Assembly: GCA_964035575.1 (NCBI GenBank)
Contig: OZ037848.1
Span: 1,488,001-1,552,000 of the forward strand
Reading direction: 5' to 3'
Length of the DNA stretch: 64,000 nt
Origin: Rhynchopus sp. YZ270_cl-10
Taxonomy: Eukaryota; Euglenozoa; Diplonemea; Diplonemida; Diplonemidae
Under the pieces are notes generated by a model, which saw nothing but the letters and a program-made list of their open reading frames with translations, had not been told where the DNA came from and searched no databases. The position numbers were made by a program, and so were the translations under genes. Position 1 is the first letter of the stretch; every line of letters starts with the position of its first letter. Below, piece by piece: positions 10,250-56,521 of this stretch.

Positions 10250-11030
10250 CAACTTACCTTCCTTCACCCCCCTGTAAGGGCAACCGTAGGTGAAGTAAGG
10301 TATAGTATTGAAATCGATGTGGGGGGGGAGTAAAGGGTCAATTTTACAAAACCAGATTTTGAGGAAAATTTTAGCCGAAAATGGGCCCCACGTATAAGGA
10401 ACCGGGCTCATATTTCTCAAAATTTAAGTGGTCAAAAAATTGTCCAATTTTCGAGATTGACCCCACCACTGCACGGGCGGAGCCCAAAAATGCAAATAAG
10501 GACCCTTTTTCAACTTACCTTCCTTCACCCCCCTGTAAGGGCAACCGTAGGTGAAGTAAGGTATAGTATTGAAATCGATGTGGGGGGGGAGTAAAGGGTC
10601 AATTTTACAAAACCAGATTTTGAGGAAAATTTTAGCCGAAAATGGGCCCCACGTATAAGCAACCGGGCTCATATTTCTCAAAATTTAAGTGGTCAAAAAA
10701 TTGTCCAATTTTCGAGATTGACCCCACCACTGCACGGGCGGAGCCCAAAAATGCAAATAAGGACCCTTTTCAACTTACCTTCCTTCACCCCCCTGTAAGG
10801 GCAACCGTAGGTGAAGTAAGGTATAGTATTGAAATCGATGTGGGGGGGGAGTAAAGGGTCAATTTTACAAAACCAGATTTTGAGGAAAATTTTAGCCGAA
10901 AATGGGCCCCACGTATAAGCAACCGGGCTCATATTTCTCAAAATTTAAGTGGTCAAAAAATTGTCCAATTTTCGAGATTGACCCCACCACTGCACGGGCG
11001 GAGCCCAAAAATGCAAATAAGGACCCTTTT
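10250..11030. repeat. Three tandem copies of a 260 bp repeat
   Basis: Units begin with CAACTTACCTTCCTTCACC at 10250, 10511 and 10771 and are nearly identical, with a period of 260-261 bp. Each contains an internal complementarity (CTTACCTTCCTTCAC against GTGAAGTAAGGTA). The unit end (GACCCCACCACTG..AAAAATGCAAAT) is related to a single copy inside the TIR element at 17754-18045, which suggests the array grew from transposon sequence. No coding capacity is evident. Confidence 0.9.
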
Positions 11031-12154
11031 TAATTTGTTCTCTTGAAATGTGTAATTTCATGTTTTCGCGAAAAAAATAACAACTGATCCTACAAGGGTT
11101 GAAGGAAGGTGGTTGAAAACAACAATAACAAGAAGGACAAGTAATTGCTAAGAAAAAAACGGGGTGTGCTGTGGAAAACTCCGCGCGATTTTCGAAACCA
11201 CCGTAGCATCCTGGCGATTTGCTGGTGTGATCGATGTGTTGTAGTCTGTGCATTCTGTGTTCCTTCCGCACTGCTCCAACGACGACTACAATGTGGGGAC
11301 CCTGTGGACAAAAACGAGCTGGACCACGCCGAGCCTGCCGAGCGGGCGTCCAACAACGCTATCGAGCAGATGGTGCTGGACGAAGAGGACAGCCCCCCTT
11401 CTTGAACGTTTCAGATGCTGGCGTCCCAGTGGGTCTGGCAGCGTACGAAGAGCGTAGCATACCTGCAGAAGAGCAGAATGCTGGGCGTATTGTAGATTAT
11501 TTCTACAGGATGGAGTTCCACATCACACCCCGTTTTTTTTCCGATAGCAATTACTTGTTTGTTTTTTTTTTGAATGAAGCAAGAATAACCCTCATTGTTC
11601 CGTTTGTCAAAAGACAGCCCTTTGATTTGAGGGGGGGTGCATTTAGAGCGCCTTACCCCCCACAAAAAGGTGTGTATATATTTTTTTTCTACACAAATTG
11701 CTGTCAGAATAAAAAAGACCGAACCATCACCAAAAATAGCCACAAAAATAAAAAACGCCATTTCAAACAAAAATCCCCGGCAATTTAACTAAGTAAATGC
11801 GCCAATCAGGGAGTCTGGCACACTAAGTTTTACTGCATTTTTCTTTTTTTGAGAAAAAAAACTAAGACAGAGTAGATTTCAAAAGAGGGCGTGTGTGTGG
11901 TGAGGGCGTTATGGGGGTTTCCCCCTTCCCTTCCCGGCATGCACCCCCTTTTCCCCCTCTCCCTAGCCCTTACGAAAGCCTTTCCCGTACCCACATAAAA
12001 ACCCACCCACCCACCCTCACCACTTCTCCTTTGCCTACATCGACCCATCGAAATAAATTATTGTACACTAAACAAGATGGGTTGACCAGTCGCGTTCAGT
12101 TTTCCAACCCCCCGTTTTCCCTACCTTCACTTTTTTAGGGTGACTACGAGAGAC
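11031..12154. other. Intergenic stretch with one weak coding fragment
   Basis: Mostly A/T runs and pyrimidine tracts. The frame ending at 11405 (about 11268-11405) has a plausible acidic C-terminal composition (for example NNAIEQMVLDEEDSPPS) and could be the last exon of an unrecognised or decayed gene. No donor or upstream exon could be paired with it. Confidence 0.35.
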
Positions 12155-36286: not shown

Positions 36287-39200
36287 ATGTTCTCTCGAAT
36301 ATTTCTCTTCTCTCTCTTTGCCGTAGGCGCACACTCGCAGTGTACCATGTATGTAGCGCAACCTGCTTGTGACGGTGACACCTCCTGTCTGTGGGATGTG
36401 CCGACCCTTAAGTGTGGTGACAAACCCTGTACTGCCTACGTTGCACAGGGTACTTGCGACGCCGACACCAGCTGCAAGTGGGATGTGCCAACCTTGAAGT
36501 GTGGGGACAAGCCCGTTTGCACTGCCTACGTTGCACAGGGTACTTGCGACGCCGACACCAACTGCAAGTGGGATGTGCCGACCTTGAAGTGTGGTGACAA
36601 GCCCGTTTGCACTGCCTACGTTGCACAGGGTACTTGCGACGCCGACACCAGCTGCAAGTGGGATGTGCCGACCTTGAAGTGCGGTGACAAGCCCGTTTGC
36701 ACTGCCTACGTTGCACAGGGTACTTGCGACGCCGACACCAGCTGCAAGTGGGATGTGCCGACCCTTAAGTGTGGGGACAAGCCCGTTTGCACTGCCTACG
36801 TTGCACAGGGTACTTGCGACGCCGACACCAGCTGCAAGTGGGATGTGCCGACCTTGAAGTGTGGTGACAAGCCCGTTTGCACTGCCTACGTTGCACAGGG
36901 TACTTGCGACGCCGACACCAGCTGCAAGTGGGATGTGCCGACCCTTAAGTGTGGTGACAAGCCCGTGTGCACTGCCTACGTTGCACAGGGTACTTGCGAC
37001 GCCGACACCAGCTGCAAGTGGGATGTGCCGACCTTGAAGTGTGGTGACAAGCCCGTGTGCACTGCCTACGTTGCACAGGGTACTTGCGACGCCGACACCA
37101 GCTGCAAGTGGGATGTGCCGACCTTGAAGTGTGGTGACAAGCCCGTGTGCACTGCCTACGTTGCACAGGGTACTTGCGACGCCGACACCAGCTGCAAGTG
37201 GGATGTGCCGACCTTGAAGTGTGGTGACAAGCCCGTTTGCACTGCCTACGTTGCACAGGGTACTTGTGACGCCGACACCAGCTGCAAGTGGGATGTGCCG
37301 ACCTTGAAGTGCGGTGACAAGCCCGTTTGCACTGCCTACGTTGCACAGGGTACTTGCGACGCCGACACCAGCTGCAAGTGGGATGTGCCGACCTTGAAGT
37401 GTGGTGACAAGCCCGTTTGCACTGCCTACGTTGCACAGGGTACTTGCGACGCCGACACCAGCTGCAAGTGGGATGTGCCGACCCTTAAGTGTGGTGACAA
37501 GCCCGTGTGCACTGCCTACGTTGCACAGGGTACTTGCGACGCCGACACCAGCTGCAAGTGGGATGTGCCGACCTTGAAGTGTGGTGACAAGCCCGTGTGC
37601 ACTGCCTACGTTGCACAGGGTACTTGCGACGCCGACACCAGCTGCAAGTGGGATGTGCCGACCTTGAAGTGTGGTGACAAGCCCGTTTGCACTGCCTACG
37701 TTGCACAGGGTACTTGTGACGCCGACACCAGCTGCAAGTGGGATGTGCCGACCTTGAAGTGCGGTGACAAGCCCGTTTGCACTGCCTACGTTGCACAGGG
37801 TACTTGCGACGCCGACACCAGCTGCAAGTGGGATGTGCCGACCCTTAAGTGCGGTGACAAGCCCGTTTGCACTGCCTACGTTGCACAGGGTACTTGCGAC
37901 GCCGACACCAGCTGCAAGTGGGATGTGCCGACCTTGAAGTGTGGTGACAAGCCCGTTTGCACTGCCTACGTTGCACAGGGTACTTGCGACGCCGACACCA
38001 GCTGCAAGTGGGATGTGCCGACCTTGAAGTGTGGTGACAAGCCCGTGTGCACTGCCTACGTTGCACAGGGTACTTGCGACGCCGACACCAGCTGCAAGTG
38101 GGATGTGCCGACCTTGAAGTGCGGTGACAAGCCCGTGTGCACTGCCTACGTTGCACAGGGTACTTGTGACGCCGACACCAGCTGCAAGTGGGATGTGCCG
38201 ACCTTGAAGTGTGGTGACAAGCCCGTGTGCACTGCCTACGTTGCACAGGGTACTTGCGACGCCGACACCAGCTGCAAGTGGGATGTGCCGACCTTGAAGT
38301 GCGGTGACAAACCCTGTACTGCCTACGTTGCACAGGGTACTTGCGACGCCGACACCAGCTGCAAGTGGGATGTGCCGACCTTGAAGTGTGGTGACAAGCC
38401 CGTGTGCACTGCCTACGTTGCACAGGGTACTTGCGACGCCGACACCAGCTGCAAGTGGGATGTGCCGACCTTGAAGTGTGGTGACAAGCCCGTTTGCACT
38501 GCCTACGTTGCACAGGGTACTTGTGACGCCGACACCAGCTGCAAGTGGGATGTGCCGACCCTTAAGTGTGGGGACAAGCCCGTTTGCACTGCCTACATTG
38601 CACAGGGTACTTGCGACGCCGACACCAGCTGCAAGTGGGATGTGCCGACCCTTAAGTGTGGGGACAAGCCCGTTTGCACTGCCTACGTTGCACAGGGTAC
38701 TTGCGACGCCGACACCAGCTGCAAGTGGGATGTGCCGACCCTTAAGTGTGGTGACAAGCCCGTTTGCACTGCCTACGTTGCACAGGGTACTTGCGACGCC
38801 GACACCAGCTGCAAGTGGGATGTGCCGACCCTTAAGTGTGGTGACAAGCCCGTTTGCACTGCCTACGTTGCACAGGGTACTTGCGACGCCGACACCAGCT
38901 GCAAGTGGGATGTGCCGACCCTTAAGTGTGGGGACAAGCCCGTTTGCACTGCCTACATTGCACAGGGTACTTGCGACGCCGACACCAGCTGCAAGTGGGA
39001 TGTGCCGACCCTTAAGTGTGGTGACAAGCCCGTTTGCACTGCCTACGTTGCACAGGGTACTTGCGACGCCGACACCAGCTGCAAGTGGGATGTGCCGACC
39101 CTTAAGTGTGGTGACAAGCCCGTTTGCACTGCCTACGTTGCACAGGGTACTTGCGACGCCGACACCAGCTGCAAGTGGGATGTGCCGACCCTTAAGTGCG

Positions 39201-42200
39201 GTGACAAGCCCGTTTGCACTGCCTACGTTGCACAGGGTACTTGCGACGCCGACACCAGCTGCAAGTGGGATGTGCCGACCCTTAAGTGTGGTGACAAGCC
39301 CGTGTGCACTGCCTACGTTGCACAGGGTACTTGCGACGCCGACACCAGCTGCAAATGGGATGTGCCGACCATGAAGTGTGGTGACAAGCCCGTTTGCACT
39401 GCCTACGTTGCACAGGGTACTTGCGACGCCGACACCAGCTGCAAGTGGGATGTGCCGACCCTTAAGTGTGGTGACAAGCCCGTTTGCACTGCCTACGTTG
39501 CACAGGGTACTTGCGACGCCGACACCACCTGCAAGTGGGATGTGCCGACCTTGAAGTGCGGTGACAAGCCCGTTTGCACTGCCTACGTTGCACAGGGTAC
39601 TTGCGACGCCGACACCAGCTGCAAGTGGGATGTGCCGACCTTGAAGTGCGGTGACAAGCCCGTTTGCACTGCCTACGTTGCACAGGGTACTTGCGACGCC
39701 GACACCAGCTGCAAGTGGGATGTGCCGACCTTGAAGTGTGGTGACAAGCCCGTTTGCACTGCCTACGTTGCACAGGGTACTTGCGACGCCGACACCAGCT
39801 GCAAGTGGGATGTGCCGACCCTTAAGTGTGGTGACAAGCCCGTTTGCACTGCCTACGTTGCACAGGGTACTTGCGACGCCGACACCAGCTGCAAGTGGGA
39901 TGTGCCGACCTTGAAGTGCGGTGACAAGCCCGTTTGCACTGCCTACGTTGCACAGGGTACTTGCGACGCCGACACCAGCTGCAAGTGGGATGTGCCGACC
40001 TTGAAGTGCGGTGACAAGCCCGTTTGCACTGCCTACGTTGCACAGGGTACTTGCGACGCCGACACCAGCTGCAAGTGGGATGTGCCGACCCTTAAGTGTG
40101 GTGACAAGCCCGTTTGCACTGCCTACGTTGCACAGGGTACTTGCGACGCCGACACCAGCTGCAAGTGGGATGTGCCGACCTTGAAGTGCGGTGACAAGCC
40201 CGTTTGCACTGCCTACGTTGCACAGGGTACTTGCGACGCCGACACCAGCTGCAAGTGGGATGTGCCGACCCTTAAGTGTGGTGACAAGCCCGTTTGCACT
40301 GCCTACGTTGCACAGGGTACTTGCGACGCCGACACCAGCTGCAAGTGGGATGTGCCGACCTTGAAGTGTGGTGACAAGCCCGTGTGCACTGCCTACGTTG
40401 CACAGGGTACTTGCGACGCCGACACCAGCTGCAAGTGGGATGTGCCGACCCTTAAGTGTGGTGACAAGCCCGTTTGCACTGCCTACGTTGCACAGGGTAC
40501 TTGCGACGCCGACACCAGCTGCAAGTGGGATGTGCCGACCCTTAAGTGTGGTGACAAGCCCGTTTGCACTGCCTACGTTGCACAGGGTACTTGCGACGCC
40601 GACACCAGCTGCAAGTGGGATGTGCCGACCCTTAAGTGTGGTGACAAGCCCGTTTGCACTGCCTACGTTGCACAGGGTACTTGCGACGCCGACACCAGCT
40701 GCAAGTGGGATGTGCCGACCCTTAAGTGTGGTGACAAGCCCGTTTGCACTGCCTACGTTGCACAGGGTACTTGCGACGCCGACACCAGCTGCAAGTGGGA
40801 TGTGCCGACCTTGAAGTGTGGTGACAAGCCCGTGTGCACTGCCTACGTTGCACAGGGTACTTGCGACGCCGACACCAGCTGCAAGTGGGATGTGCCGACC
40901 CTTAAGTGCGGTGACAAGCCCGTTTGCACTGCCTACGTTGCACAGGGTACTTGCGACGCCGACACCAGCTGCAAGTGGGATGTGCCGACCCTTAAGTGTG
41001 GTGACAAGCCCGTTTGCACTGCCTACGTTGCACAGGGTACTTGCGACGCCGACACCAGCTGCAAGTGGGATGTGCCGACCTTGAAGTGCGGTGACAAGCC
41101 CGTTTGCACTGCCTACGTTGCACAGGGTACTTGCGACGCCGACACCAGCTGCAAGTGGGATGTGCCGACCTTGAAGTGCGGTGACAAGCCCGTTTGCACT
41201 GCCTACGTTGCACAGGGTACTTGCGACGCCGACACCAGCTGCAAGTGGGATGTGCCGACCTTGAAGTGCGGTGACAAGCCCGTTTGCACTGCCTACGTTG
41301 CACAGGGTACTTGCGACGCCGACACCAGCTGCAAGTGGGATGTGCCGACCTTGAAGTGTGGTGACAAGCCCGTTTGCACTGCCTACGTTGCACAGGGTAC
41401 TTGCGACGCCGACACCAGCTGCAAGTGGGATGTGCCGACCTTGAAGTGTGGTGACAAGCCCGTTTGCACTGCCTACGTTGCACAGGGTACTTGCGACGCC
41501 GACACCAGCTGCAAGTGGGATGTGCCGACCTTGAAGTGTGGTGACAAGCCCGTGTGCACTGCCTACGTTGCACAGGGTACTTGCGACGCCGACACCAGCT
41601 GCAAGTGGGATGTGCCGACCCTTAAGTGTGGTGACAAGCCCGTTTGCACTGCCTACGTTGCACAGGGTACTTGCGACGCCGACACCAGCTGCAAGTGGGA
41701 TGTGCCGACCCTTAAGTGTGGTGACAAGCCCGTTTGCACTGCCTACGTTGCACAGGGTACTTGCGACGCCGACACCAGCTGCAAGTGGGATGTGCCGACC
41801 CTTAAGTGTGGGGACAAGCCCGTTTGCACTGCCTACATTGCACAGGGTACTTGCGACGCCGACACCAGCTGCAAGTGGGATGTGCCGACCCTTAAGTGCG
41901 GTGACAAGCCCGTTTGCACTGCCTACGTTGCACAGGGTACTTGCGACGCCGACACCAGCTGCAAGTGGGATGTGCCGACCTTGAAGTGTGGTGACAAGCC
42001 CGTGTGCACTGCCTACGTTGCACAGGGTACTTGCGACGCCGACACCAGCTGCAAGTGGGATGTGCCGACCCTTAAGTGCGGTGACAAGCCCGTTTGCACT
42101 GCCTACGTTGCACAGGGTACTTGCGACGCCGACACCAGCTGCAAGTGGGATGTGCCGACCCTTAAGTGTGGGGACAAGCCCGTTTGCACTGCCTACGTTG

Positions 42201-45200
42201 CACAGGGTACTTGCGACGCCGACACCAGCTGCAAGTGGGATGTACCGACCTTGAAGTGCGGTGACAAGCCCGTGTGCACTGCCTACGTTGCACAGGGTAC
42301 TTGCGACGCCGACACCAGCTGCAAGTGGGATGTACCGACCTTGAAGTGCGGTGACAAGCCCGTTTGCACTGCCTACGTTGCACAGGGTACTTGCGACGCC
42401 GACACCAGCTGCAAGTGGGATGTGCCGACCCTTAAGTGTGGTGACAAGCCCGTTTGCACTGCCTACGTTGCACAGGGTACTTGCGACGCCGACACCAGCT
42501 GCAAGTGGGATGTGCCGACCCTTAAGTGTGGTGACAAGCCCGTTTGCACTGCCTACGTTGCACAGGGTACTTGCGACGCCGACACCAGCTGCAAGTGGGA
42601 TGTGCCGACCTTGAAGTGTGGGGACAAGCCCGTTTGCACTGCCTACGTTGCACAGGGTACTTGCGACGCCGACACCAGCTGCAAGTGGGATGTGCCGACC
42701 TTGAAGTGTGGTGACAAGCCCGTTTGCACTGCCTACGTTGCACAGGGTACTTGCGACGCCGACACCAGCTGCAAGTGGGATGTGCCGACCTTGAAGTGTG
42801 GGGACAAGCCCGTTTGCACTGCCTACGTTGCACAGGGTACTTGCGACGCCGACACCAGCTGCAAGTGGGATGTGCCGACCTTGAAGTGCGGTGACAAGCC
42901 CGTTTGCACTGCCTACGTTGCACAGGGTACTTGCGACGCCGACACCAGCTGCAAGTGGGATGTGCCGACCCTTAAGTGCGGTGACAAGCCCGTTTGCACT
43001 GCCTACGTTGCACAGGGTACTTGCGACGCCGACACCAGCTGCAAGTGGGATGTGCCGACCCTTAAGTGTGGTGACAAGCCCGTTTGCACTGCCTACGTTG
43101 CACAGGGTACTTGCGACGCCGACACCAGCTGCAAGTGGGATGTGCCGACCCTTAAGTGTGGGGACAAGCCCGTTTGCACTGCCTACATTGCACAGGGTAC
43201 TTGCGACGCCGACACCAGCTGCAAGTGGGATGTGCCGACCCTTAAGTGCGGTGACAAGCCCGTTTGCACTGCCTACGTTGCACAGGGTACTTGCGACGCC
43301 GACACCAGCTGCAAGTGGGATGTGCCGACCTTGAAGTGTGGTGACAAGCCCGTGTGCACTGCCTACGTTGCACAGGGTACTTGCGACGCCGACACCAGCT
43401 GCAAGTGGGATGTGCCGACCCTTAAGTGCGGTGACAAGCCCGTTTGCACTGCCTACGTTGCACAGGGTACTTGCGACGCCGACACCAGCTGCAAGTGGGA
43501 TGTGCCGACCCTTAAGTGTGGGGACAAGCCCGTTTGCACTGCCTACGTTGCACAGGGTACTTGCGACGCCGACACCAGCTGCAAGTGGGATGTGCCGACC
43601 TTGAAGTGTGGTGACAAGCCCGTGTGCACTGCCTACGTTGCACAGGGTACTTGCGACGCCGACACCAGCTGCAAGTGGGATGTACCGACCTTGAAGTGCG
43701 GTGACAAGCCCGTTTGCACTGCCTACGTTGCACAGGGTACTTGCGACGCCGACACCAGCTGCAAGTGGGATGTGCCGACCTTGAAGTGTGGGGACAAGCC
43801 CGTTTGCACTGCCTACGTTGCACAGGGTACTTGCGACGCCGACACCAGCTGCAAGTGGGATGTGCCGACCTTGAAGTGTGGTGACAAGCCCGTTTGCACT
43901 GCCTACGTTGCACAGGGTACTTGCGACGCCGACACCAGCTGCAAGTGGGATGTGCCGACCTTGAAGTGTGGGGACAAGCCCGTTTGCACTGCCTACGTTG
44001 CACAGGGTACTTGCGACGCCGACACCAGCTGCAAGTGGGATGTGCCGACCTTGAAGTGCGGTGACAAGCCCGTTTGCACTGCCTACGTTGCACAGGGTAC
44101 TTGCGACGCCGACACCAGCTGCAAGTGGGATGTGCCGACCCTTAAGTGCGGTGACAAGCCCGTTTGCACTGCCTACGTTGCACAGGGTACTTGCGACGCC
44201 GACACCAGCTGCAAGTGGGATGTGCCGACCCTTAAGTGCGGTGACAAGCCCGTTTGCACTGCCTACGTTGCACAGGGTACTTGCGACGCCGACACCAGCT
44301 GCAAGTGGGATGTGCCGACCTTGAAGTGTGGTGACAAGCCCGTTTGCACTGCCTACGTTGCACAGGGTACTTGCGACGCCGACACCAGCTGCAAGTGGGA
44401 TGTGCCGACCCTTAAGTGTGGTGACAAGCCCGTTTGCACTGCCTACGTTGCACAGGGTACTTGCGACGCCGACACCAGCTGCAAGTGGGATGTGCCGACC
44501 TTGAAGTGCGGTGACAAGCCCGTTTGCACTGCCTACGTTGCACAGGGTACTTGCGACGCCGACACCAGCTGCAAGTGGGATGTGCCGACCTTGAAGTGCG
44601 GTGACAAGCCCGTTTGCACTGCCTACGTTGCACAGGGTACTTGCGACGCCGACACCAGCTGCAAGTGGGATGTGCCGACCCTTAAGTGTGGTGACAAGCC
44701 CGTTTGCACTGCCTACGTTGCACAGGGTACTTGCGACGCCGACACCAGCTGCAAGTGGGATGTGCCGACCTTGAAGTGCGGTGACAAGCCCGTTTGCACT
44801 GCCTACGTTGCACAGGGTACTTGCGACGCCGACACCAGCTGCAAGTGGGATGTGCCGACCTTGAAGTGTGGTGACAAGCCCGTGTGCACTGCCTACGTTG
44901 CACAGGGTACTTGCGACGCCGACACCAGCTGCAAGTGGGATGTGCCGACCCTTAAGTGTGGTGACAAGCCCGTTTGCACTGCCTACGTTGCACAGGGTAC
45001 TTGCGACGCCGACACCAGCTGCAAGTGGGATGTGCCGACCCTTAAGTGTGGGGACAAGCCCGTTTGCACTGCCTACATTGCACAGGGTACTTGCGACGCC
45101 GACACCAGCTGCAAGTGGGATGTGCCGACCCTTAAGTGCGGTGACAAGCCCGTTTGCACTGCCTACGTTGCACAGGGTACTTGCGACGCCGACACCAGCT

Positions 45201-48200: not shown

Positions 48201-51200
48201 GTGACAAGCCCGTTTGCACTGCCTACGTTGCACAGGGTACTTGCGACGCCGACACCAGCTGCAAGTGGGATGTGCCGACCTTGAAGTGCGGTGACAAGCC
48301 CGTTTGCACTGCCTACGTTGCACAGGGTACTTGCGACGCCGACACCAGCTGCAAGTGGGATGTGCCGACCTTGAAGTGTGGGGACAAGCCCGTTTGCACT
48401 GCCTACGTTGCACAGGGTACTTGCGACGCCGACACCAGCTGCAAGTGGGATGTGCCGACCTTGAAGTGCGGTGACAAGCCCGTTTGCACTGCCTACGTTG
48501 CACAGGGTACTTGCGACGCCGACACCAGCTGCAAGTGGGATGTGCCGACCTTGAAGTGCGGTGACAAGCCCGTTTGCACTGCCTACGTTGCACAGGGTAC
48601 TTGCGACGCCGACACCAGCTGCAAGTGGGATGTGCCGACCTTGAAGTGTGGGGACAAGCCCGTTTGCACTGCCTACGTTGCACAGGGTACTTGCGACGCC
48701 GACACCAGCTGCAAGTGGGATGTGCCGACCCTTAAGTGTGGGGACAAGCCCGTTTGCACTGCCTACGTTGCACAGGGTACTTGCGACGCCGACACCAGCT
48801 GCAAGTGGGATGTGCCGACCTTGAAGTGTGGTGACAAGCCCGTTTGCACTGCCTACGTTGCACAGGGTACTTGCGACGCCGACACCAGCTGCAAGTGGGA
48901 TGTGCCGACCTTGAAGTGCGGTGACAAGCCCGTTTGCACTGCCTACGTTGCACAGGGTACTTGCGACGCCGACACCAGCTGCAAGTGGGATGTGCCGACC
49001 TTGAAGTGTGGTGACAAGCCCGTTTGCACTGCCTACGTTGCACAGGGTACTTGCGACGCCGACACCAGCTGCAAGTGGGATGTGCCGACCCTTAAGTGTG
49101 GTGACAAGCCCGTTTGCACTGCCTACGTTGCACAGGGTACTTGCGACGCCGACACCAGCTGCAAGTGGGATGTGCCGACCCTTAAGTGCGGTGACAAACT
49201 CTGTACTGCCTACGTTGCACAGGGTACTTGCGACGCCGACACCAGCTGCAAGTGGGATGTGCCGACCTTGAAGTGCGGTGACAAGCCCGTTTGCACTGCC
49301 TACGTTGCACAGGGTACTTGCGACGCCGACACCAGCTGCAAGTGGGATGTGCCGACCTTGAAGTGCGGTGACAAGCCCGTTTGCACTGCCTACGTTGCAC
49401 AGGGTACTTGCGACGCCGACACCAGCTGCAAGTGGGATGTGCCGACCTTGAAGTGCGGTGACAAGCCCGTTTGCACTGCCTACGTTGCACAGGGTACTTG
49501 CGACGCCGACACCAGCTGCAAGTGGGATGTGCCGACCTTGAAGTGTGGTGACAAGCCCGTTTGCACTGCCTACGTTGCACAGGGTACTTGCGACGCCGAC
49601 ACCAGCTGCAAGTGGGATGTGCCGACCTTGAAGTGCGGTGACAAGCCCGTTTGCACTGCCTACGTTGCACAGGGTACTTGCGACGCCGACACCAGCTGCA
49701 AGTGGGATGTGCCGACCTTGAAGTGCGGTGACAAGCCCGTTTGCACTGCCTACGTTGCACAGGGTACTTGCGACGCCGACACCAGCTGCAAGTGGGATGT
49801 GCCGACCCTTAAGTGTGGTGACAAGCCCGTTTGCACTGCCTACGTTGCACAGGGTACTTGCGACGCCGACACCAGCTGCAAGTGGGATGTGCCGACCTTG
49901 AAGTGTGGTGACAAGCCCGTTTGCACTGCCTACGTTGCACAGGGTACTTGCGACGCCGACACCAGCTGCAAGTGGGATGTGCCGACCCTTAAGTGTGGTG
50001 ACAAGCCCGTTTGCACTGCCTACGTTGCACAGGGTACTTGCGACGCCGACACCAGCTGCAAGTGGGATGTGCCGACCTTGAAGTGTGGTGACAAGCCCGT
50101 TTGCACTGCCTACGTTGCACAGGGTACTTGCGACGCCGACACCAGCTGCAAGTGGGATGTGCCGACCCTTAAGTGTGGTGACAAGCCCGTTTGCACTGCC
50201 TACGTTGCACAGGGTACTTGCGACGCCGACACCAGCTGCAAGTGGGATGTGCCGACCTTGAAGTGTGGTGACAAGCCCGTTTGCACTGCCTACGTTGCAC
50301 AGGGTACTTGCGACGCCGACACCAGCTGCAAGTGGGATGTGCCGACCTTGAAGTGCGGTGACAAGCCCGTTTGCACTGCCTACGTTGCACAGGGTACTTG
50401 CGACGCCGACACCAGCTGCAAGTGGGATGTGCCCACCCTTAAGTGTGGTGACAAGCCCGTTTGCACTGCCTACGTTGCACAGGGTACTTGCGACGCCGAC
50501 ACCAGCTGCAAGTGGGATGTGCCGACCTTGAAGTGTGGTGACAAGCCCGTTTGCACTGCCTACGTTGCACAGGGTACTTGCGACGCCGACACCAGCTGCA
50601 AGTGGGATGTGCCGACCCTTAAGTGTGGTGACAAGCCCGTTTGCACTGCCTACGTTGCACAGGGTACTTGCGACGCCGACACCAGCTGCAAGTGGGATGT
50701 GCCGACCCTTAAGTGCGGTGACAAACCCTGTACTGCCTACGTTGCACAGGGTACTTGCGACGCCGACACCAGCTGCAAGTGGGATGTGCCGACCCTTAAG
50801 TGTGGTGACAAGCCCGTTTGCACTGCCTACGTTGCACAGGGTACTTGCGACGCCGACACCAGCTGCAAGTGGGATGTGCCGACCCTTAAGTGTGGTGACA
50901 AGCCCGTTTGCACTGCCTACGTTGCACAGGGTACTTGCGACGCCGACACCAGCTGCAAGTGGGATGTGCCGACCCTTAAGTGTGGTGACAAGCCCGTTTG
51001 CACTGCCTACGTTGCACAGGGTACTTGCGACGCCGACACCAGCTGCAAGTGGGATGTGCCGACCCTTAAGTGCGGTGACAAACCCTGTACTGCCTACGTT
51101 GCACAGGGTACTTGCGACGCCGACACCAGCTGCAAGTGGGATGTGCCGACCCTTAAGTGTGGTGACAAGCCCGTTTGCACTGCCTACGTTGCACAGGGTA

Positions 51201-54200
51201 CTTGCGACGCCGACACCAGCTGCAAGTGGGATGTGCCGACCCTTAAGTGTGGTGACAAGCCCGTTTGCACTGCCTACGTTGCACAGGGTACTTGCGACGC
51301 CGACACCAGCTGCAAGTGGGATGTGCCGACCCTTAAGTGTGGTGACAAGCCCGTTTGCACTGCCTACGTTGCACAGGGTACTTGCGACGCCGACACCAGC
51401 TGCAAGTGGGATGTGCCGACCTTGAAGTGTGGTGACAAGCCCGTTTGCACTGCCTACGTTGCACAGGGTACTTGCGACGCCGACACCAGCTGCAAGTGGG
51501 ATGTGCCGACCCTTAAGTGTGGTGACAAGCCCGTTTGCACTGCCTACGTTGCACAGGGTACTTGCGACGCCGACACCAGCTGCAAGTGGGATGTGCCGAC
51601 CTTGAAGTGTGGTGACAAGCCCGTTTGCACTGCCTACGTTGCACAGGGTACTTGCGACGCCGACACCAGCTGCAAGTGGGATGTGCCGACCTTGAAGTGC
51701 GGTGACAAGCCCGTTTGCACTGCCTACGTTGCACAGGGTACTTGCGACGCCGACACCAGCTGCAAGTGGGATGTGCCGACCTTGAAGTGTGGGGACAAGC
51801 CCGTTTGCACTGCCTACGTTGCACAGGGTACTTGCGACGCCGACACCAGCTGCAAGTGGGATGTGCCGACCTTGAAGTGCGGTGACAAGCCCGTTTGCAC
51901 TGCCTACGTTGCACAGGGTACTTGCGACGCCGACACCAGCTGCAAGTGGGATGTGCCGACCTTGAAGTGCGGTGACAAGCCCGTTTGCACTGCCTACGTT
52001 GCACAGGGTACTTGCGACGCCGACACCAGCTGCAAGTGGGATGTGCCGACCTTGAAGTGTGGGGACAAGCCCGTTTGCACTGCCTACGTTGCACAGGGTA
52101 CTTGCGACGCCGACACCAGCTGCAAGTGGGATGTGCCGACCTTGAAGTGTGGGGACAAGCCCGTTTGCACTGCCTACGTTGCACAGGGTACTTGCGACGC
52201 CGACACCAGCTGCAAGTGGGATGTGCCGACCCTTAAGTGTGGGGACAAGCCCGTTTGCACTGCCTACGTTGCACAGGGTACTTGCGACGCCGACACCAGC
52301 TGCAAGTGGGATGTGCCGACCTTGAAGTGTGGTGACAAGCCCGTTTGCACTGCCTACGTTGCACAGGGTACTTGCGACGCCGACACCAGCTGCAAGTGGG
52401 ATGTGCCGACCTTGAAGTGCGGTGACAAGCCCGTTTGCACTGCCTACGTTGCACAGGGTACTTGCGACGCCGACACCAGCTGCAAGTGGGATGTGCCGAC
52501 CTTGAAGTGTGGTGACAAGCCCGTTTGCACTGCCTACGTTGCACAGGGTACTTGCGACGCCGACACCAGCTGCAAGTGGGATGTGCCGACCCTTAAGTGT
52601 GGTGACAAGCCCGTTTGCACTGCCTACGTTGCACAGGGTACTTGCGACGCCGACACCAGCTGCAAGTGGGATGTGCCGACCCTTAAGTGCGGTGACAAAC
52701 TCTGTACTGCCTACGTTGCACAGGGTACTTGCGACGCCGACACCAGCTGCAAGTGGGATGTGCCGACCTTGAAGTGCGGTGACAAGCCCGTTTGCACTGC
52801 CTACGTTGCACAGGGTACTTGCGACGCCGACACCAGCTGCAAGTGGGATGTGCCGACCTTGAAGTGCGGTGACAAGCCCGTTTGCACTGCCTACGTTGCA
52901 CAGGGTACTTGCGACGCCGACACCAGCTGCAAGTGGGATGTGCCGACCTTGAAGTGCGGTGACAAGCCCGTTTGCACTGCCTACGTTGCACAGGGTACTT
53001 GCGACGCCGACACCAGCTGCAAGTGGGATGTGCCGACCTTGAAGTGTGGTGACAAGCCCGTTTGCACTGCCTACGTTGCACAGGGTACTTGCGACGCCGA
53101 CACCAGCTGCAAGTGGGATGTGCCGACCTTGAAGTGCGGTGACAAGCCCGTTTGCACTGCCTACGTTGCACAGGGTACTTGCGACGCCGACACCAGCTGC
53201 AAGTGGGATGTGCCGACCTTGAAGTGCGGTGACAAGCCCGTTTGCACTGCCTACGTTGCACAGGGTACTTGCGACGCCGACACCAGCTGCAAGTGGGATG
53301 TGCCGACCCTTAAGTGTGGTGACAAGCCCGTTTGCACTGCCTACGTTGCACAGGGTACTTGCGACGCCGACACCAGCTGCAAGTGGGATGTGCCGACCTT
53401 GAAGTGTGGTGACAAGCCCGTTTGCACTGCCTACGTTGCACAGGGTACTTGCGACGCCGACACCAGCTGCAAGTGGGATGTGCCGACCCTTAAGTGTGGT
53501 GACAAGCCCGTTTGCACTGCCTACGTTGCACAGGGTACTTGCGACGCCGACACCAGCTGCAAGTGGGATGTGCCGACCTTGAAGTGTGGTGACAAGCCCG
53601 TTTGCACTGCCTACGTTGCACAGGGTACTTGCGACGCCGACACCAGCTGCAAGTGGGATGTGCCGACCCTTAAGTGTGGTGACAAGCCCGTTTGCACTGC
53701 CTACGTTGCACAGGGTACTTGCGACGCCGACACCAGCTGCAAGTGGGATGTGCCGACCTTGAAGTGTGGTGACAAGCCCGTTTGCACTGCCTACGTTGCA
53801 CAGGGTACTTGCGACGCCGACACCAGCTGCAAGTGGGATGTGCCGACCTTGAAGTGCGGTGACAAGCCCGTTTGCACTGCCTACGTTGCACAGGGTACTT
53901 GCGACGCCGACACCAGCTGCAAGTGGGATGTGCCCACCCTTAAGTGTGGTGACAAGCCCGTTTGCACTGCCTACGTTGCACAGGGTACTTGCGACGCCGA
54001 CACCAGCTGCAAGTGGGATGTGCCGACCTTGAAGTGTGGTGACAAGCCCGTTTGCACTGCCTACGTTGCACAGGGTACTTGCGACGCCGACACCAGCTGC
54101 AAGTGGGATGTGCCGACCCTTAAGTGTGGTGACAAGCCCGTTTGCACTGCCTACGTTGCACAGGGTACTTGCGACGCCGACACCAGCTGCAAGTGGGATG

Positions 54201-56521
54201 TGCCGACCCTTAAGTGCGGTGACAAACCCTGTACTGCCTACGTTGCACAGGGTACTTGCGACGCCGACACCAGCTGCAAGTGGGATGTGCCGACCCTTAA
54301 GTGTGGTGACAAGCCCGTTTGCACTGCCTACGTTGCACAGGGTACTTGCGACGCCGACACCAGCTGCAAGTGGGATGTGCCGACCCTTAAGTGTGGTGAC
54401 AAGCCCGTTTGCACTGCCTACGTTGCACAGGGTACTTGCGACGCCGACACCAGCTGCAAGTGGGATGTGCCGACCCTTAAGTGTGGTGACAAGCCCGTTT
54501 GCACTGCCTACGTTGCACAGGGTACTTGCGACGCCGACACCAGCTGCAAGTGGGATGTGCCGACCCTTAAGTGCGGTGACAAACCCTGTACTGCCTACGT
54601 TGCACAGGGTACTTGCGACGCCGACACCAGCTGCAAGTGGGATGTGCCGACCCTTAAGTGTGGTGACAAGCCCGTTTGCACTGCCTACGTTGCACAGGGT
54701 ACTTGCGACGCCGACACCAGCTGCAAGTGGGATGTGCCGACCCTTAAGTGTGGTGACAAGCCCGTTTGCACTGCCTACGTTGCACAGGGTACTTGCGACG
54801 CCGACACCAGCTGCAAGTGGGATGTGCCGACCCTTAAGTGTGGTGACAAGCCCGTTTGCACTGCCTACGTTGCACAGGGTACTTGCGACGCCGACACCAG
54901 CTGCAAGTGGGATGTGCCGACCTTGAAGTGTGGTGACAAGCCCGTTTGCACTGCCTACGTTGCACAGGGTACTTGCGACGCCGACACCAGCTGCAAGTGG
55001 GATGTGCCGACCTTGAAGTGTGGTGACAAGCCCGTTTGCACTGCCTACGTTGCACAGGGTACTTGCGACGCCGACACCAGCTGCAAGTGGGATGTGCCGA
55101 CCCTTAAGTGTGGTGACAAGCCCGTTTGCACTGCCTACGTTGCACAGGGTACTTGCGACGCCGACACCAGCTGCAAGTGGGATGTGCCGACCTTGAAGTG
55201 TGGTGACAAGCCCGTTTGCACTGCCTACGTTGCACAGGGTACTTGCGACGCCGACACCAGCTGCAAGTGGGATGTGCCGACCTTGAAGTGCGGTGACAAG
55301 CCCGTTTGCACTGCCTACGTTGCACAGGGTACTTGCGACGCCGACACCAGCTGCAAGTGGGATGTGCCGACCTTGAAGTGTGGTGACAAGCCCGTTTGCA
55401 CTGCCTACGTTGCACAGGGTACTTGCGACGCCGACACCAGCTGCAAGTGGGATGTGCCGACCCTTAAGTGTGGTGACAAGCCCGTTTGCACTGCCTACGT
55501 TGCACAGGGTACTTGCGACGCCGACACCAGCTGCAAGTGGGATGTGCCGACCCTTAAGTGTGGTGACAAGCCCGTTTGCACTGCCTACGTTGCACAGGGT
55601 ACTTGCGACGCCGACACCAGCTGTCAGTGGGATGTGCCGACCCTTAAATGTACTGACACACCCTCTACTTGCAGTGGGTACCTTGCCCAAACAAAGTGTG
55701 ATGCTGACCAGATGTGTTTCTGGGATGTAGCTTCCCTTTCATGTGACGACAACACCGTTGTCTGCTCTGGGTTAGCCGAAGTGAATTGCACCACAACCAA
55801 CAACTGTGAGTGGAACAGCACGTTGAGCAGTTGTTCGTACGTTCCTGCTGCTGCTTGCACGCAGCATACCACTGAACCCCTTTGTAATGCTGGACCCGGA
55901 TGCACCTGGTCCGGGACTCTTTGTACTGTTTCAACTCCAGCACAGACCTGCAGTACAGGCACAATTACGACCTGCTCGACACTCTCTTCCTGTGAATGGG
56001 TCGGGTCCGTCTGCGAGCCGAAGTGCTCGAAGCTCTTACTTGCGGCTGATTGCGGGAGCGCTACGAAATGTATTTGGGAGACTGCTGGGACCTGCACTGA
56101 CAAGATTGAGACACCTACGTGCGAGACGTCTCTTACGCAGAGCAGCTGCCTTGCGAGCACTGACTGTACTTGGGGGACAAAGTGTACGACGAAGGCGACT
56201 GTCAAGTGCGCGAAGCTGGTTCAAACGACGAGTTGTGGTGCTGATAACGATTGTGTGTGGGATGCTGCGACCGGCGTCTGCGGTGCGAGTACTGCGACGG
56301 ACAGTAGTAGCGGTGGCGACGACGGCCTCGGTATCGGCATCATCATTGCGATCATTGTGGGTGTGGTGCTGCTCCTTGCCGCCATTGCAGGGGCAGTCTA
56401 CTACTTCGTCTGCAGGAAGGACGACGAAGTGTACCTCGGTGAGCTTATAGAGTTGATGCCGCCTGCCGACGACCCTTTCTTTATGACAGAATCAGACGCC
56501 GGCCAGAAACTGAATTACTGA
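36287..56521 (+). CDS. Giant type I surface protein of about 215 four-cysteine modules
   Basis: 6744 residues in one uninterrupted frame. Residues 1-18 are a signal peptide (MFSRIFLFSLFAVGAHSQ). Residues 19-6461 are a tandem array. The standard module is 30 residues with Cys at 1, 10, 16 and 25, Tyr4, Gly8, Asp11, Asp13, Trp18 and Pro21. From the array length and the eight one-residue-shorter units I calculate 215 modules. Residues 6462 to about 6675 are seven diverged modules with the same C-x7-9-C-x5-C-x-W plan and two NxT/S sequons. A transmembrane helix (about 6681-6709) and a 35-residue acidic tail end the protein. It should be exported, disulfide-rich, net acidic and very long: an adhesin, coat or filament is an inference. 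I do not recognise the family. First, third and last modules deviate slightly; otherwise changes are almost all silent. Confidence 0.92.
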   Translation: MFSRIFLFSLFAVGAHSQCTMYVAQPACDGDTSCLWDVPTLKCGDKPCTAYVAQGTCDADTSCKWDVPTLKCGDKPVCTAYVAQGTCDADTNCKWDVPTLKCGDKPVCTAYVAQGTCDADTSCKWDVPTLKCGDKPVCTAYVAQGTCDADTSCKWDVPTLKCGDKPVCTAYVAQGTCDADTSCKWDVPTLKCGDKPVCTAYVAQGTCDADTSCKWDVPTLKCGDKPVCTAYVAQGTCDADTSCKWDVPTLKCGDKPVCTAYVAQGTCDADTSCKWDVPTLKCGDKPVCTAYVAQGTCDADTSCKWDVPTLKCGDKPVCTAYVAQGTCDADTSCKWDVPTLKCGDKPVCTAYVAQGTCDADTSCKWDVPTLKCGDKPVCTAYVAQGTCDADTSCKWDVPTLKCGDKPVCTAYVAQGTCDADTSCKWDVPTLKCGDKPVCTAYVAQGTCDADTSCKWDVPTLKCGDKPVCTAYVAQGTCDADTSCKWDVPTLKCGDKPVCTAYVAQGTCDADTSCKWDVPTLKCGDKPVCTAYVAQGTCDADTSCKWDVPTLKCGDKPVCTAYVAQGTCDADTSCKWDVPTLKCGDKPVCTAYVAQGTCDADTSCKWDVPTLKCGDKPVCTAYVAQGTCDADTSCKWDVPTLKCGDKPVCTAYVAQGTCDADTSCKWDVPTLKCGDKPCTAYVAQGTCDADTSCKWDVPTLKCGDKPVCTAYVAQGTCDADTSCKWDVPTLKCGDKPVCTAYVAQGTCDADTSCKWDVPTLKCGDKPVCTAYIAQGTCDADTSCKWDVPTLKCGDKPVCTAYVAQGTCDADTSCKWDVPTLKCGDKPVCTAYVAQGTCDADTSCKWDVPTLKCGDKPVCTAYVAQGTCDADTSCKWDVPTLKCGDKPVCTAYIAQGTCDADTSCKWDVPTLKCGDKPVCTAYVAQGTCDADTSCKWDVPTLKCGDKPVCTAYVAQGTCDADTSCKWDVPTLKCGDKPVCTAYVAQGTCDADTSCKWDVPTLKCGDKPVCTAYVAQGTCDADTSCKWDVPTMKCGDKPVCTAYVAQGTCDADTSCKWDVPTLKCGDKPVCTAYVAQGTCDADTTCKWDVPTLKCGDKPVCTAYVAQGTCDADTSCKWDVPTLKCGDKPVCTAYVAQGTCDADTSCKWDVPTLKCGDKPVCTAYVAQGTCDADTSCKWDVPTLKCGDKPVCTAYVAQGTCDADTSCKWDVPTLKCGDKPVCTAYVAQGTCDADTSCKWDVPTLKCGDKPVCTAYVAQGTCDADTSCKWDVPTLKCGDKPVCTAYVAQGTCDADTSCKWDVPTLKCGDKPVCTAYVAQGTCDADTSCKWDVPTLKCGDKPVCTAYVAQGTCDADTSCKWDVPTLKCGDKPVCTAYVAQGTCDADTSCKWDVPTLKCGDKPVCTAYVAQGTCDADTSCKWDVPTLKCGDKPVCTAYVAQGTCDADTSCKWDVPTLKCGDKPVCTAYVAQGTCDADTSCKWDVPTLKCGDKPVCTAYVAQGTCDADTSCKWDVPTLKCGDKPVCTAYVAQGTCDADTSCKWDVPTLKCGDKPVCTAYVAQGTCDADTSCKWDVPTLKCGDKPVCTAYVAQGTCDADTSCKWDVPTLKCGDKPVCTAYVAQGTCDADTSCKWDVPTLKCGDKPVCTAYVAQGTCDADTSCKWDVPTLKCGDKPVCTAYVAQGTCDADTSCKWDVPTLKCGDKPVCTAYVAQGTCDADTSCKWDVPTLKCGDKPVCTAYVAQGTCDADTSCKWDVPTLKCGDKPVCTAYVAQGTCDADTSCKWDVPTLKCGDKPVCTAYVAQGTCDADTSCKWDVPTLKCGDKPVCTAYVAQGTCDADTSCKWDVPTLKCGDKPVCTAYIAQGTCDADTSCKWDVPTLKCGDKPVCTAYVAQGTCDADTSCKWDVPTLKCGDKPVCTAYVAQGTCDADTSCKWDVPTLKCGDKPVCTAYVAQGTCDADTSCKWDVPTLKCGDKPVCTAYVAQGTCDADTSCKWDVPTLKCGDKPVCTAYVAQGTCDADTSCKWDVPTLKCGDKPVCTAYVAQGTCDADTSCKWDVPTLKCGDKPVCTAYVAQGTCDADTSCKWDVPTLKCGDKPVCTAYVAQGTCDADTSCKWDVPTLKCGDKPVCTAYVAQGTCDADTSCKWDVPTLKCGDKPVCTAYVAQGTCDADTSCKWDVPTLKCGDKPVCTAYVAQGTCDADTSCKWDVPTLKCGDKPVCTAYVAQGTCDADTSCKWDVPTLKCGDKPVCTAYVAQGTCDADTSCKWDVPTLKCGDKPVCTAYVAQGTCDADTSCKWDVPTLKCGDKPVCTAYIAQGTCDADTSCKWDVPTLKCGDKPVCTAYVAQGTCDADTSCKWDVPTLKCGDKPVCTAYVAQGTCDADTSCKWDVPTLKCGDKPVCTAYVAQGTCDADTSCKWDVPTLKCGDKPVCTAYVAQGTCDADTSCKWDVPTLKCGDKPVCTAYVAQGTCDADTSCKWDVPTLKCGDKPVCTAYVAQGTCDADTSCKWDVPTLKCGDKPVCTAYVAQGTCDADTSCKWDVPTLKCGDKPVCTAYVAQGTCDADTSCKWDVPTLKCGDKPVCTAYVAQGTCDADTSCKWDVPTLKCGDKPVCTAYVAQGTCDADTSCKWDVPTLKCGDKPVCTAYVAQGTCDADTSCKWDVPTLKCGDKPVCTAYVAQGTCDADTSCKWDVPTLKCGDKPVCTAYVAQGTCDADTSCKWDVPTLKCGDKPVCTAYVAQGTCDADTSCKWDVPTLKCGDKPVCTAYVAQGTCDADTSCKWDVPTLKCGDKPVCTAYVAQGTCDADTSCKWDVPTLKCGDKPVCTAYVAQGTCDADTSCKWDVPTLKCGDKPVCTAYVAQGTCDADTSCKWDVPTLKCGDKPVCTAYVAQGTCDADTSCKWDVPTLKCGDKPVCTAYVAQGTCDADTSCKWDVPTLKCGDKPVCTAYIAQGTCDADTSCKWDVPTLKCGDKPVCTAYVAQGTCDADTSCKWDVPTLKCGDKPVCTAYVAQGTCDADTSCKWDVPTLKCGDKPVCTAYVAQGTCDADTSCKWDVPTLKCGDKPVCTAYVAQGTCDADTSCKWDVPTLKCGDKPVCTAYVAQGTCDADTSCKWDVPTLKCGDKPVCTAYVAQGTCDADTSCKWDVPTLKCGDKPVCTAYVAQGTCDADTSCKWDVPTLKCGDKPVCTAYIAQGTCDADTSCKWDVPTLKCGDKPVCTAYVAQGTCDADTSCKWDVPTLKCGDKPVCTAYVAQGTCDADTSCKWDVPTLKCGDKPVCTAYVAQGTCDADTSCKWDVPTLKCGDKPVCTAYVAQGTCDADTSCKWDVPTLKCGDKPVCTAYVAQGTCDADTSCKWDVPTLKCGDKPVCTAYVAQGTCDADTSCKWDVPTLKCGDKPVCTAYVAQGTCDADTSCKWDVPTLKCGDKPVCTAYVAQGTCDADTSCKWDVPTLKCGDKPVCTAYVAQGTCDADTSCKWDVPTLKCGDKPVCTAYVAQGTCDADTSCKWDVPTLKCGDKPVCTAYVAQGTCDADTSCKWDVPTLKCGDKPVCTAYVAQGTCDADTSCKWDVPTLKCGDKPVCTAYVAQGTCDADTSCKWDVPTLKCGDKPVCTAYVAQGTCDADTSCKWDVPTLKCGDKPVCTAYVAQGTCDADTSCKWDVPTLKCGDKPVCTAYVAQGTCDADTSCKWDVPTLKCGDKPVCTAYVAQGTCDADTSCKWDVPTLKCGDKPVCTAYVAQGTCDADTSCKWDVPTLKCGDKPVCTAYVAQGTCDADTSCKWDVPTLKCGDKPVCTAYVAQGTCDADTSCKWDVPTLKCGDKPVCTAYVAQGTCDADTSCKWDVPTLKCGDKPVCTAYVAQGTCDADTSCKWDVPTLKCGDKPVCTAYVAQGTCDADTSCKWDVPTLKCGDKPVCTAYIAQGTCDADTSCKWDVPTLKCGDKPVCTAYVAQGTCDADTSCKWDVPTLKCGDKPVCTAYVAQGTCDADTSCKWDVPTLKCGDKPVCTAYVAQGTCDADTSCKWDVPTLKCGDKPVCTAYVAQGTCDADTSCKWDVPTLKCGDKPVCTAYVAQGTCDADTSCKWDVPTLKCGDKPVCTAYVAQGTCDADTSCKWDVPTLKCGDKPVCTAYVAQGTCDADTSCKWDVPTLKCGDKPVCTAYVAQGTCDADTSCKWDVPTLKCGDKPVCTAYVAQGTCDADTSCKWDVPTLKCGDKPVCTAYVAQGTCDADTSCKWDVPTLKCGDKPVCTAYVAQGTCDADTSCKWDVPTLKCGDKPVCTAYVAQGTCDADTSCKWDVPTLKCGDKPVCTAYVAQGTCDADTSCKWDVPTLKCGDKLCTAYVAQGTCDADTSCKWDVPTLKCGDKPVCTAYVAQGTCDADTSCKWDVPTLKCGDKPVCTAYVAQGTCDADTSCKWDVPTLKCGDKPVCTAYVAQGTCDADTSCKWDVPTLKCGDKPVCTAYVAQGTCDADTSCKWDVPTLKCGDKPVCTAYVAQGTCDADTSCKWDVPTLKCGDKPVCTAYVAQGTCDADTSCKWDVPTLKCGDKPVCTAYVAQGTCDADTSCKWDVPTLKCGDKPVCTAYVAQGTCDADTSCKWDVPTLKCGDKPVCTAYVAQGTCDADTSCKWDVPTLKCGDKPVCTAYVAQGTCDADTSCKWDVPTLKCGDKPVCTAYVAQGTCDADTSCKWDVPTLKCGDKPVCTAYVAQGTCDADTSCKWDVPTLKCGDKPVCTAYVAQGTCDADTSCKWDVPTLKCGDKPVCTAYVAQGTCDADTSCKWDVPTLKCGDKPVCTAYVAQGTCDADTSCKWDVPTLKCGDKPVCTAYVAQGTCDADTSCKWDVPTLKCGDKPCTAYVAQGTCDADTSCKWDVPTLKCGDKPVCTAYVAQGTCDADTSCKWDVPTLKCGDKPVCTAYVAQGTCDADTSCKWDVPTLKCGDKPVCTAYVAQGTCDADTSCKWDVPTLKCGDKPCTAYVAQGTCDADTSCKWDVPTLKCGDKPVCTAYVAQGTCDADTSCKWDVPTLKCGDKPVCTAYVAQGTCDADTSCKWDVPTLKCGDKPVCTAYVAQGTCDADTSCKWDVPTLKCGDKPVCTAYVAQGTCDADTSCKWDVPTLKCGDKPVCTAYVAQGTCDADTSCKWDVPTLKCGDKPVCTAYVAQGTCDADTSCKWDVPTLKCGDKPVCTAYVAQGTCDADTSCKWDVPTLKCGDKPVCTAYVAQGTCDADTSCKWDVPTLKCGDKPVCTAYVAQGTCDADTSCKWDVPTLKCGDKPVCTAYVAQGTCDADTSCKWDVPTLKCGDKPVCTAYVAQGTCDADTSCKWDVPTLKCGDKPVCTAYVAQGTCDADTSCKWDVPTLKCGDKPVCTAYVAQGTCDADTSCKWDVPTLKCGDKPVCTAYVAQGTCDADTSCKWDVPTLKCGDKPVCTAYVAQGTCDADTSCKWDVPTLKCGDKPVCTAYVAQGTCDADTSCKWDVPTLKCGDKPVCTAYVAQGTCDADTSCKWDVPTLKCGDKLCTAYVAQGTCDADTSCKWDVPTLKCGDKPVCTAYVAQGTCDADTSCKWDVPTLKCGDKPVCTAYVAQGTCDADTSCKWDVPTLKCGDKPVCTAYVAQGTCDADTSCKWDVPTLKCGDKPVCTAYVAQGTCDADTSCKWDVPTLKCGDKPVCTAYVAQGTCDADTSCKWDVPTLKCGDKPVCTAYVAQGTCDADTSCKWDVPTLKCGDKPVCTAYVAQGTCDADTSCKWDVPTLKCGDKPVCTAYVAQGTCDADTSCKWDVPTLKCGDKPVCTAYVAQGTCDADTSCKWDVPTLKCGDKPVCTAYVAQGTCDADTSCKWDVPTLKCGDKPVCTAYVAQGTCDADTSCKWDVPTLKCGDKPVCTAYVAQGTCDADTSCKWDVPTLKCGDKPVCTAYVAQGTCDADTSCKWDVPTLKCGDKPVCTAYVAQGTCDADTSCKWDVPTLKCGDKPVCTAYVAQGTCDADTSCKWDVPTLKCGDKPVCTAYVAQGTCDADTSCKWDVPTLKCGDKPCTAYVAQGTCDADTSCKWDVPTLKCGDKPVCTAYVAQGTCDADTSCKWDVPTLKCGDKPVCTAYVAQGTCDADTSCKWDVPTLKCGDKPVCTAYVAQGTCDADTSCKWDVPTLKCGDKPCTAYVAQGTCDADTSCKWDVPTLKCGDKPVCTAYVAQGTCDADTSCKWDVPTLKCGDKPVCTAYVAQGTCDADTSCKWDVPTLKCGDKPVCTAYVAQGTCDADTSCKWDVPTLKCGDKPVCTAYVAQGTCDADTSCKWDVPTLKCGDKPVCTAYVAQGTCDADTSCKWDVPTLKCGDKPVCTAYVAQGTCDADTSCKWDVPTLKCGDKPVCTAYVAQGTCDADTSCKWDVPTLKCGDKPVCTAYVAQGTCDADTSCKWDVPTLKCGDKPVCTAYVAQGTCDADTSCKWDVPTLKCGDKPVCTAYVAQGTCDADTSCKWDVPTLKCGDKPVCTAYVAQGTCDADTSCQWDVPTLKCTDTPSTCSGYLAQTKCDADQMCFWDVASLSCDDNTVVCSGLAEVNCTTTNNCEWNSTLSSCSYVPAAACTQHTTEPLCNAGPGCTWSGTLCTVSTPAQTCSTGTITTCSTLSSCEWVGSVCEPKCSKLLLAADCGSATKCIWETAGTCTDKIETPTCETSLTQSSCLASTDCTWGTKCTTKATVKCAKLVQTTSCGADNDCVWDAATGVCGASTATDSSSGGDDGLGIGIIIAIIVGVVLLLAAIAGAVYYFVCRKDDEVYLGELIELMPPADDPFFMTESDAGQKLNY
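36341..55669 (+). repeat. 19.3 kb coding minisatellite, 90 bp unit, about 215 copies
   Basis: Units differ mainly at a few silent positions: Leu CTT or TTG, Cys TGC or TGT, Gly GGT or GGG, Val GTT or GTG. Rare replacement variants are Ile for Val at module position 5 (seven units, TACATT near 38596, 38956, 41836, 43186, 45076, 45796 and 47956), Asn for Ser (36568) and Thr for Ser (39527). Eight units are 87 bp and all lack the final Val codon. The same marker sets recur at fixed distances, showing block duplications within the array. Confidence 0.95.

Follow-up and report, generated by a model that had tools for sequence, protein, structure and literature searches.

Does an open reading frame of 6744 codons, most of it a 90-bp tandem repeat, encode a protein that the cell makes, and what might such a protein do? 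The frame lies on the forward strand of the window, by which we mean the whole 64,000-nucleotide stretch of DNA that was analysed (50.9% GC), and runs from an ATG at 36287 to a TGA at 56521, the only stop it contains, with the preceding in-frame TAA at 36188. A preliminary description of this DNA had proposed a secreted or membrane protein of about 215 almost identical four-cysteine modules, possibly a long stiff surface fibre, coat or adhesin, built on a module not known from any family. Below we ask which parts of that proposal stand, and set the frame among its relatives in the genome and its possible counterparts in other organisms.

Architecture and coding status of the giant frame

The frame encodes 6744 residues with the plan of a type I membrane protein. 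Its first 18 residues (36287–36340, +), ahead of the first module cysteine, look by eye like a signal peptide and are followed by modules rather than by a head domain; the signal peptide claimed earlier stands to that extent, although its hydrophobic core is short and a 19-residue hydropathy scan does not flag it. A run of 215 near-identical modules of 29–31 residues, linker included, follows at 36341–55669 (+), each with cysteines at positions 1, 10, 16 and 25 and a tryptophan at 18, and then seven modules that have diverged in sequence but keep this Cys/Trp pattern (55670–56281, +); both N-glycosylation sequons of the whole frame fall among these seven. The sole segment that passes the hydropathy scan, near residues 6681–6703 (peak 3.26 for the 19-residue window from residue 6683), marks a transmembrane helix at approximately 56330–56404 (+). 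Beyond it lies a short acidic, presumably cytoplasmic, tail of about 36 polar residues (56411–56518, +), whose juxtamembrane Cys6709, just past the helix, is the one cysteine outside the modules. In module count, cysteine spacing, diverged modules, helix and tail, the preliminary description proved accurate.

The same is true of its roughly 19.3 kb of 90-bp repeats free of frame breaks: Tandem Repeats Finder (TRF) reports an array at 36391–55642 with 214.2 copies and 97% match, all within the single open frame. With copy number taken as it stands in the assembly, there are 222 modules in total, and all share the pattern Cys, seven or eight residues, Cys, five residues, Cys-x-Trp, then Cys. The protein contains 889 cysteines (the earlier estimate was over 850), 888 of them in modules at four apiece, and 222 tryptophans, one to each module. 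Most array units are 30 residues long (206 of 215), eight are 29 and one is 31, so that differences in unit length are whole codons without exception; 196 of the 215 are the same as protein, while as DNA the units fall into 30 distinct sequences. The 215-unit array has no N-glycosylation sequon and a charge of −218 over 6443 residues. A stretch of 2949 bp at 48563–51511 (+) recurs exactly at 52064–55012, at an offset of 3501, which argues that the array is being homogenised by recombination.

Such homogenisation bears on whether the frame is a gene. The preliminary description had argued from its survival over 20 kb that the protein is made and selected, but an antisense frame is also open for 6479 codons (36251–55690, −), and in a homogenised array an unbroken frame is therefore weak evidence for coding. 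Differences between units are more informative. A comparison of the 206 units that measure exactly 90 bp, with the nine of other lengths set aside, shows 13 site changes, excluding a two-base swap of leucine codons that is silent in the sense frame. Nine of the 13 are synonymous in the sense frame, against 23–29% expected (binomial P 0.0004–0.003, according to the transition bias assumed), a result that draws on 13 variant sites only and in which gene conversion or inter-unit recombination makes the changes less independent than the test requires. For the antisense frame without stops along the array, the split is one synonymous to 12 non-synonymous. A second antisense frame, stop-free in the commonest unit, likewise has one synonymous change in 13, and the leucine swap creates a stop there; the third has nine in 13, but the consensus unit contains a stop in that frame. 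As the differences are mostly synonymous in the sense frame and mostly not in the antisense, it appears that the sense protein is being maintained, and we regard the bias as good, but not overwhelming, evidence for coding. Together with the paralogues described below it is stronger evidence than the open frame, and on both counts the protein is very likely made and selected, as first proposed, if not for the reason then given. The pattern of unit differences speaks against an antisense gene, and we judge that frame to be a by-product of the repeat. A noncoding minisatellite or an assembly artefact is thought unlikely, given the synonymous bias and the paralogues.

The host assembly comprises 152.4 Mb in 126 contigs. 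The 3′-end of a kinetoplastid-type spliced leader has 752 matches in the genome at up to two mismatches, compared with one for a reversed control, and the dinoflagellate leader has none at the same threshold, which told against a dinoflagellate host. At one locus (L038) the leader is followed by GT, whereas in three of the four spliced-leader loci examined (L035, L036 and L037) gene-like sequence, not an intron donor, follows its 3′-end; one speculative explanation is that these three derive from trans-spliced mRNAs copied back into the genome. Given the spliced-leader genes, an AG at 36248–36249 (+), 37 nt 5′ of the giant frame's ATG and preceded by a pyrimidine-rich stretch, is a plausible trans-splice acceptor. 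Contig C48 carries 27 equal-scoring tandem matches to an elongation factor gene (642747–700919, −), EFL-type by our reading of the sequence, with apparently one intron in each of the two copies examined. EFL has been reported in all three diplonemids tested, and also in some kinetoplastids and one euglenid (PMC2664479). From the spliced leader and EFL together we conclude that the host, a marine single-celled flagellate, is a diplonemid (Euglenozoa). The chromosomes of Rhynchopus euleeides have 58–59% GC where values are shown (PMC12171722), compared with 50.9% in the window. Linkage of spliced-leader, 5S and U2 genes is described for Diplonema papillatum in PMC10161547; Rfam at gathering score returned nothing in the window or at two spliced-leader loci, and this linkage was accordingly not seen at those two loci.

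Several other features of the window are worth recording. A Polo-like kinase gene occupies 6705–9402 (+) in two frames, with the kinase domain in 6705–7952 and the polo boxes in 8524–9402, which suggests an intron between the two, whereas the giant frame is uninterrupted. A 261-bp unit is repeated three times at more than 99% identity at 10244–11036 (+). Finally, 40-bp units of the CACAAAAAA type, 77–87% identical, form an inverted repeat about 1 kb apart (4435–4810 and 5640–5908) that resembles the ends of a mobile element.

A family of module proteins in the same genome

The statement that no family has this module finds no support in the genome, where the four-cysteine module is seen in 10 other open frames. 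The longest are on C2 (22161 codons), C49 (17138 codons, read in part) and C47 (6051 codons, also read in part); two are on C43 (3968 and 2221 codons), two on C8 (1910 and 898), two on C63 (2846 codons with one module, and 211 codons with one module whose second loop is longer by eye) and one on C60 (489 codons, with modules and a transmembrane helix by eye). Both C8 frames share by eye the plan of the giant protein, with a signal-peptide-like start, modules immediately after it, a transmembrane helix and a short tail. The larger of these paralogues, 1895 residues from its first ATG, has 62 modules that contain 248 of its 250 cysteines, a 525-bp repeat and 172 N-glycosylation sequons; its smaller counterpart, of 877 residues, has 54, and blocks have been amplified independently in the two. 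With no sequon in the giant array and 172 and 54 in these relatives, the same scaffold occurs in bare and in potentially heavily glycosylated forms.

The family extends beyond these frames. Protein searches also match frames on C39, C40, C41 and C93 and at least three further ones on C8, all known from those matches alone, while for others, on C76 and C85 at least, the match falls mostly on the final module and membrane region of the giant protein. The C85 matches include a cluster of five large open frames (693501–743435, −; 1898–3224 codons) that match its membrane end at E values of 3e-5 to 8.5e-4. Some relatives combine the module with other domains: Pfam identifies von Willebrand factor A (VWA) domains in the part of the C47 frame examined, VWA-like domains are visible by eye in the C2 and C49 frames, and C43 has PLAT-like repeats and proline/threonine-rich stretches, again by eye. 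In the C49 frame (approximately 886000–928400, +), VWA-like domains and modules occur together in the 4 kb examined.

The C2 frame (339935–406418, +; loci L009–L016) is possibly more striking than the 222-module protein itself. In addition to VWA-like domains and four-cysteine modules it contains tandem repeats of 0.93–0.98 kb, detected by TRF, that are built of EGF-like cysteine units. It ends in an apparent intron donor (CAG/GTATGT), so the protein may exceed 22161 codons, and to our knowledge a single open frame of that length is already among the longest known.

These bead-built proteins are apparently a large, undescribed family in this genome. Among published titles and the openings of abstracts we found no description of the module family, and the words 'giant', 'cysteine' and 'von Willebrand' each occur zero times in the main text of PMC10161547. 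In scans that reach close relatives only, peptides of the array had no match in viral contigs, and bacterial and archaeal genomes gave eight matches to the pattern and no relatives.

Resemblances to known domains and surface proteins

Outside this genome the module has lookalikes, a second respect in which the earlier statement needs amending, though kinship with them is unproven. The resemblances, weak both in sequence and in fold, are to PSI (plexin) domains, to the C-terminal domain of trypanosome variant surface glycoproteins (VSGs) and to Paramecium surface antigens, and establish membership in none. The likeness to PSI lies in the core C...C...CxW...C common to both; PSI domains have more cysteines than the module and are usually single in a protein. 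Among 25 module pairs, 11 match PSI (PF01437) at E ≤ 10, and of 10 pairs scanned singly one, from C43, reaches 24.1 bits against a cut-off of 23.1, but a 34-module stretch of C43 taken as a whole gives no PSI match at E 10. Pieces of the giant protein score at most 16.6 bits where scores are shown, below the cut-off, and PSI is not reported for its first 2000 residues. Genome-wide, PSI is found at one place only, on C70, in an EGF-rich frame with the classical CGWC motif, and in no module frame. A Foldseek search with a two-bead model returned semaphorin or plexin entries, which presumably carry PSI domains, as its first 10 matches (best E 0.34).

For the Paramecium surface antigen family (PF01508), the two C8 paralogues reach 83.8 and 35.0 bits as whole proteins (cut-off 21.2), yet neither has a stretch that is significant alone, and module pairs from C8 score 13.1–15.6 bits in the four of nine cases reported. 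The family is not reported for the first 2000 residues of the giant protein at E ≤ 1 or for the diverged modules at E ≤ 10, and was not found genome-wide at E 0.001, a search for which the control genomes were uninformative. As described in PMC3341644 and PMC4136848, ciliate immobilization antigens have a signal peptide and tandem repeats with periodic cysteines, and in both respects the giant protein, with its signal-peptide-like start, is similar. The antigens are GPI-anchored, however, whereas the giant protein ends in a transmembrane helix and polar acidic tail and has no GPI-anchor signal by sequence; its modules, of 29–31 residues and four cysteines, are also smaller than the blocks of Tetrahymena antigens (55–100 residues, 6–10 cysteines).

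The VSG likeness was assessed against PF10659 and the structures 2jwg and 5m4t. Two-module profiles have as their best match in the PDB the C-terminal domain of VSG ILTat 1.24 (E 0.0097 and 0.0056), and no other VSG chain was reported in these searches. A profile with its loop columns shuffled still found the same chain (E 0.065, one control), so the match owes most to the spacing of cysteine and tryptophan. With a profile of one module the PDB search returned nothing, and the C60 protein by itself had no match there. PF10659 in turn matches the genome at a single site, on C60 (24.1 bits, cut-off 21.4), but hmmscan of the C60 protein does not return this family at E ≤ 0.1, and the 23 families that the 25 module pairs match at E ≤ 10 do not include it. 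In VSGs, a large N-terminal domain is followed by one or two C-terminal domains of 20–40 residues, and the protein carries a GPI anchor (PMC4697842). Neither that large helical domain nor the anchor is present in the giant protein, in which modules follow directly on the signal-peptide-like start and a helix and tail close the chain.

Matches of repeat stretches to C8-3_MUC4, zf_CCCH, flagellin and other Pfam or NCBIfam families contain no single significant stretch and were set aside as spurious. Yeast flocculins are stalk adhesins with tandem near-identical repeats whose length changes by recombination, and the giant protein is like them in both features; it differs in having no head domain and in being made of cysteine beads rather than Ser/Thr-rich stalks.

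Possible roles at the cell surface

The reading that we favour, at a probability of roughly 55%, is that of a type I cell-surface protein with an ectodomain of 222 four-cysteine beads, each around one tryptophan, and no separate binding head, forming a long bristle or coat filament that is locked by disulfides and whose length is set by recombination. The sequence itself supplies the single frame, the bead pattern, the cysteine parity, the helix and tail, the synonymous bias and the paralogues of the same plan. To these we would add an N-terminus that acts as a signal peptide; beads that each fold alone, closed by two internal disulfides; and a chain extended over a few hundred nanometres, or about 0.4 µm if each bead spans a guessed 2 nm. 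Such a chain may be a bristle, spacer or coat filament that resists proteases and is free of N-glycans along the array, and unequal recombination of the 90-bp units would set its length. The even number of cysteines per module is consistent with two intra-module disulfides. Of five AlphaFold models of a two-bead piece one is confident (pLDDT 85.7) and the others score 42–45, and a four-bead piece scores 35.7; the argument for closed disulfides and independent folding is thus one of cysteine parity.

The long surface fibre or coat of the preliminary description remains plausible, and its surface location, stiffness and adhesion are presumed. Candidate settings would be a glycocalyx, a flagellar hair coat or the coat of a sessile stage. 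In Diplonema japonicum and D. aggregatum, the apical part and the flagella are covered by a glycocalyx and hair coat, and the coat formed in the sessile stage seems to promote adherence between cells (PMC5845003). R. euleeides is described as having a naked plasma membrane covering, as in other diplonemids (PMC12171722), which disfavours a thick coat in every stage.

Adhesion could be a property of such a filament, which may hold on through many weak contacts, or it could be the main function. In that second case, a tentative alternative that we consider clearly less probable, the protein would be an adhesin or prey-capture receptor in which a weak binding site in each module, present in 215 copies, gives avidity for other cells such as bacteria or algae, and the tail signals. 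A headless array of near-identical modules would suit this, and relatives pair the module with VWA (by Pfam) and PLAT-like (by eye) domains, both of which commonly bind ligands. A predatory habit has also been suggested for D. papillatum (PMC10161547). Against this, Pfam recognises no ligand-binding site or domain in the giant protein, and its short tail has no clear signalling motif. Since the ectodomain is headless, the protein could act as a stalk for a binding domain only if binding fell to the seven diverged modules next to the membrane.

It is improbable that the ectodomain is instead shed, or packed in extrusomes, and contributes to a cross-linked coat or mucilage in a sessile stage. 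Sessile D. japonicum and D. aggregatum do form an amorphous coat and tubular extrusomes (PMC5845003), but the giant protein has a membrane helix and tail, and its even cysteine parity speaks against cross-links through free cysteines. More doubtful still is a serotype-like coat protein, one of a set expressed singly as are immobilization antigens or VSGs: the family is large, with gene clusters on C8 and C85 (the C85 frames known from matches alone), and the module weakly resembles both Paramecium surface antigens and the VSG C-terminal domain, but here the anchor is a transmembrane helix rather than a lipid signal, a variable head domain is lacking and the repeats are near-invariant. A metallothionein-like metal sink is judged less likely, as a spaced four-cysteine module with a tryptophan, behind a signal peptide, would fit disulfides better.

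More tentatively, the giant protein might be viewed as an extreme and pure form of its family, headless, with 222 beads and a sequon-free array, beside a 62-bead sister on C8 with 172 sequons. The giant gene and its relatives would constitute a first catalogue of a diplonemid surface-protein family, and a naturally occurring chain in which 215 of 222 cysteine beads are near-identical would be a useful model for the evolution of repeat length and for polymer mechanics.
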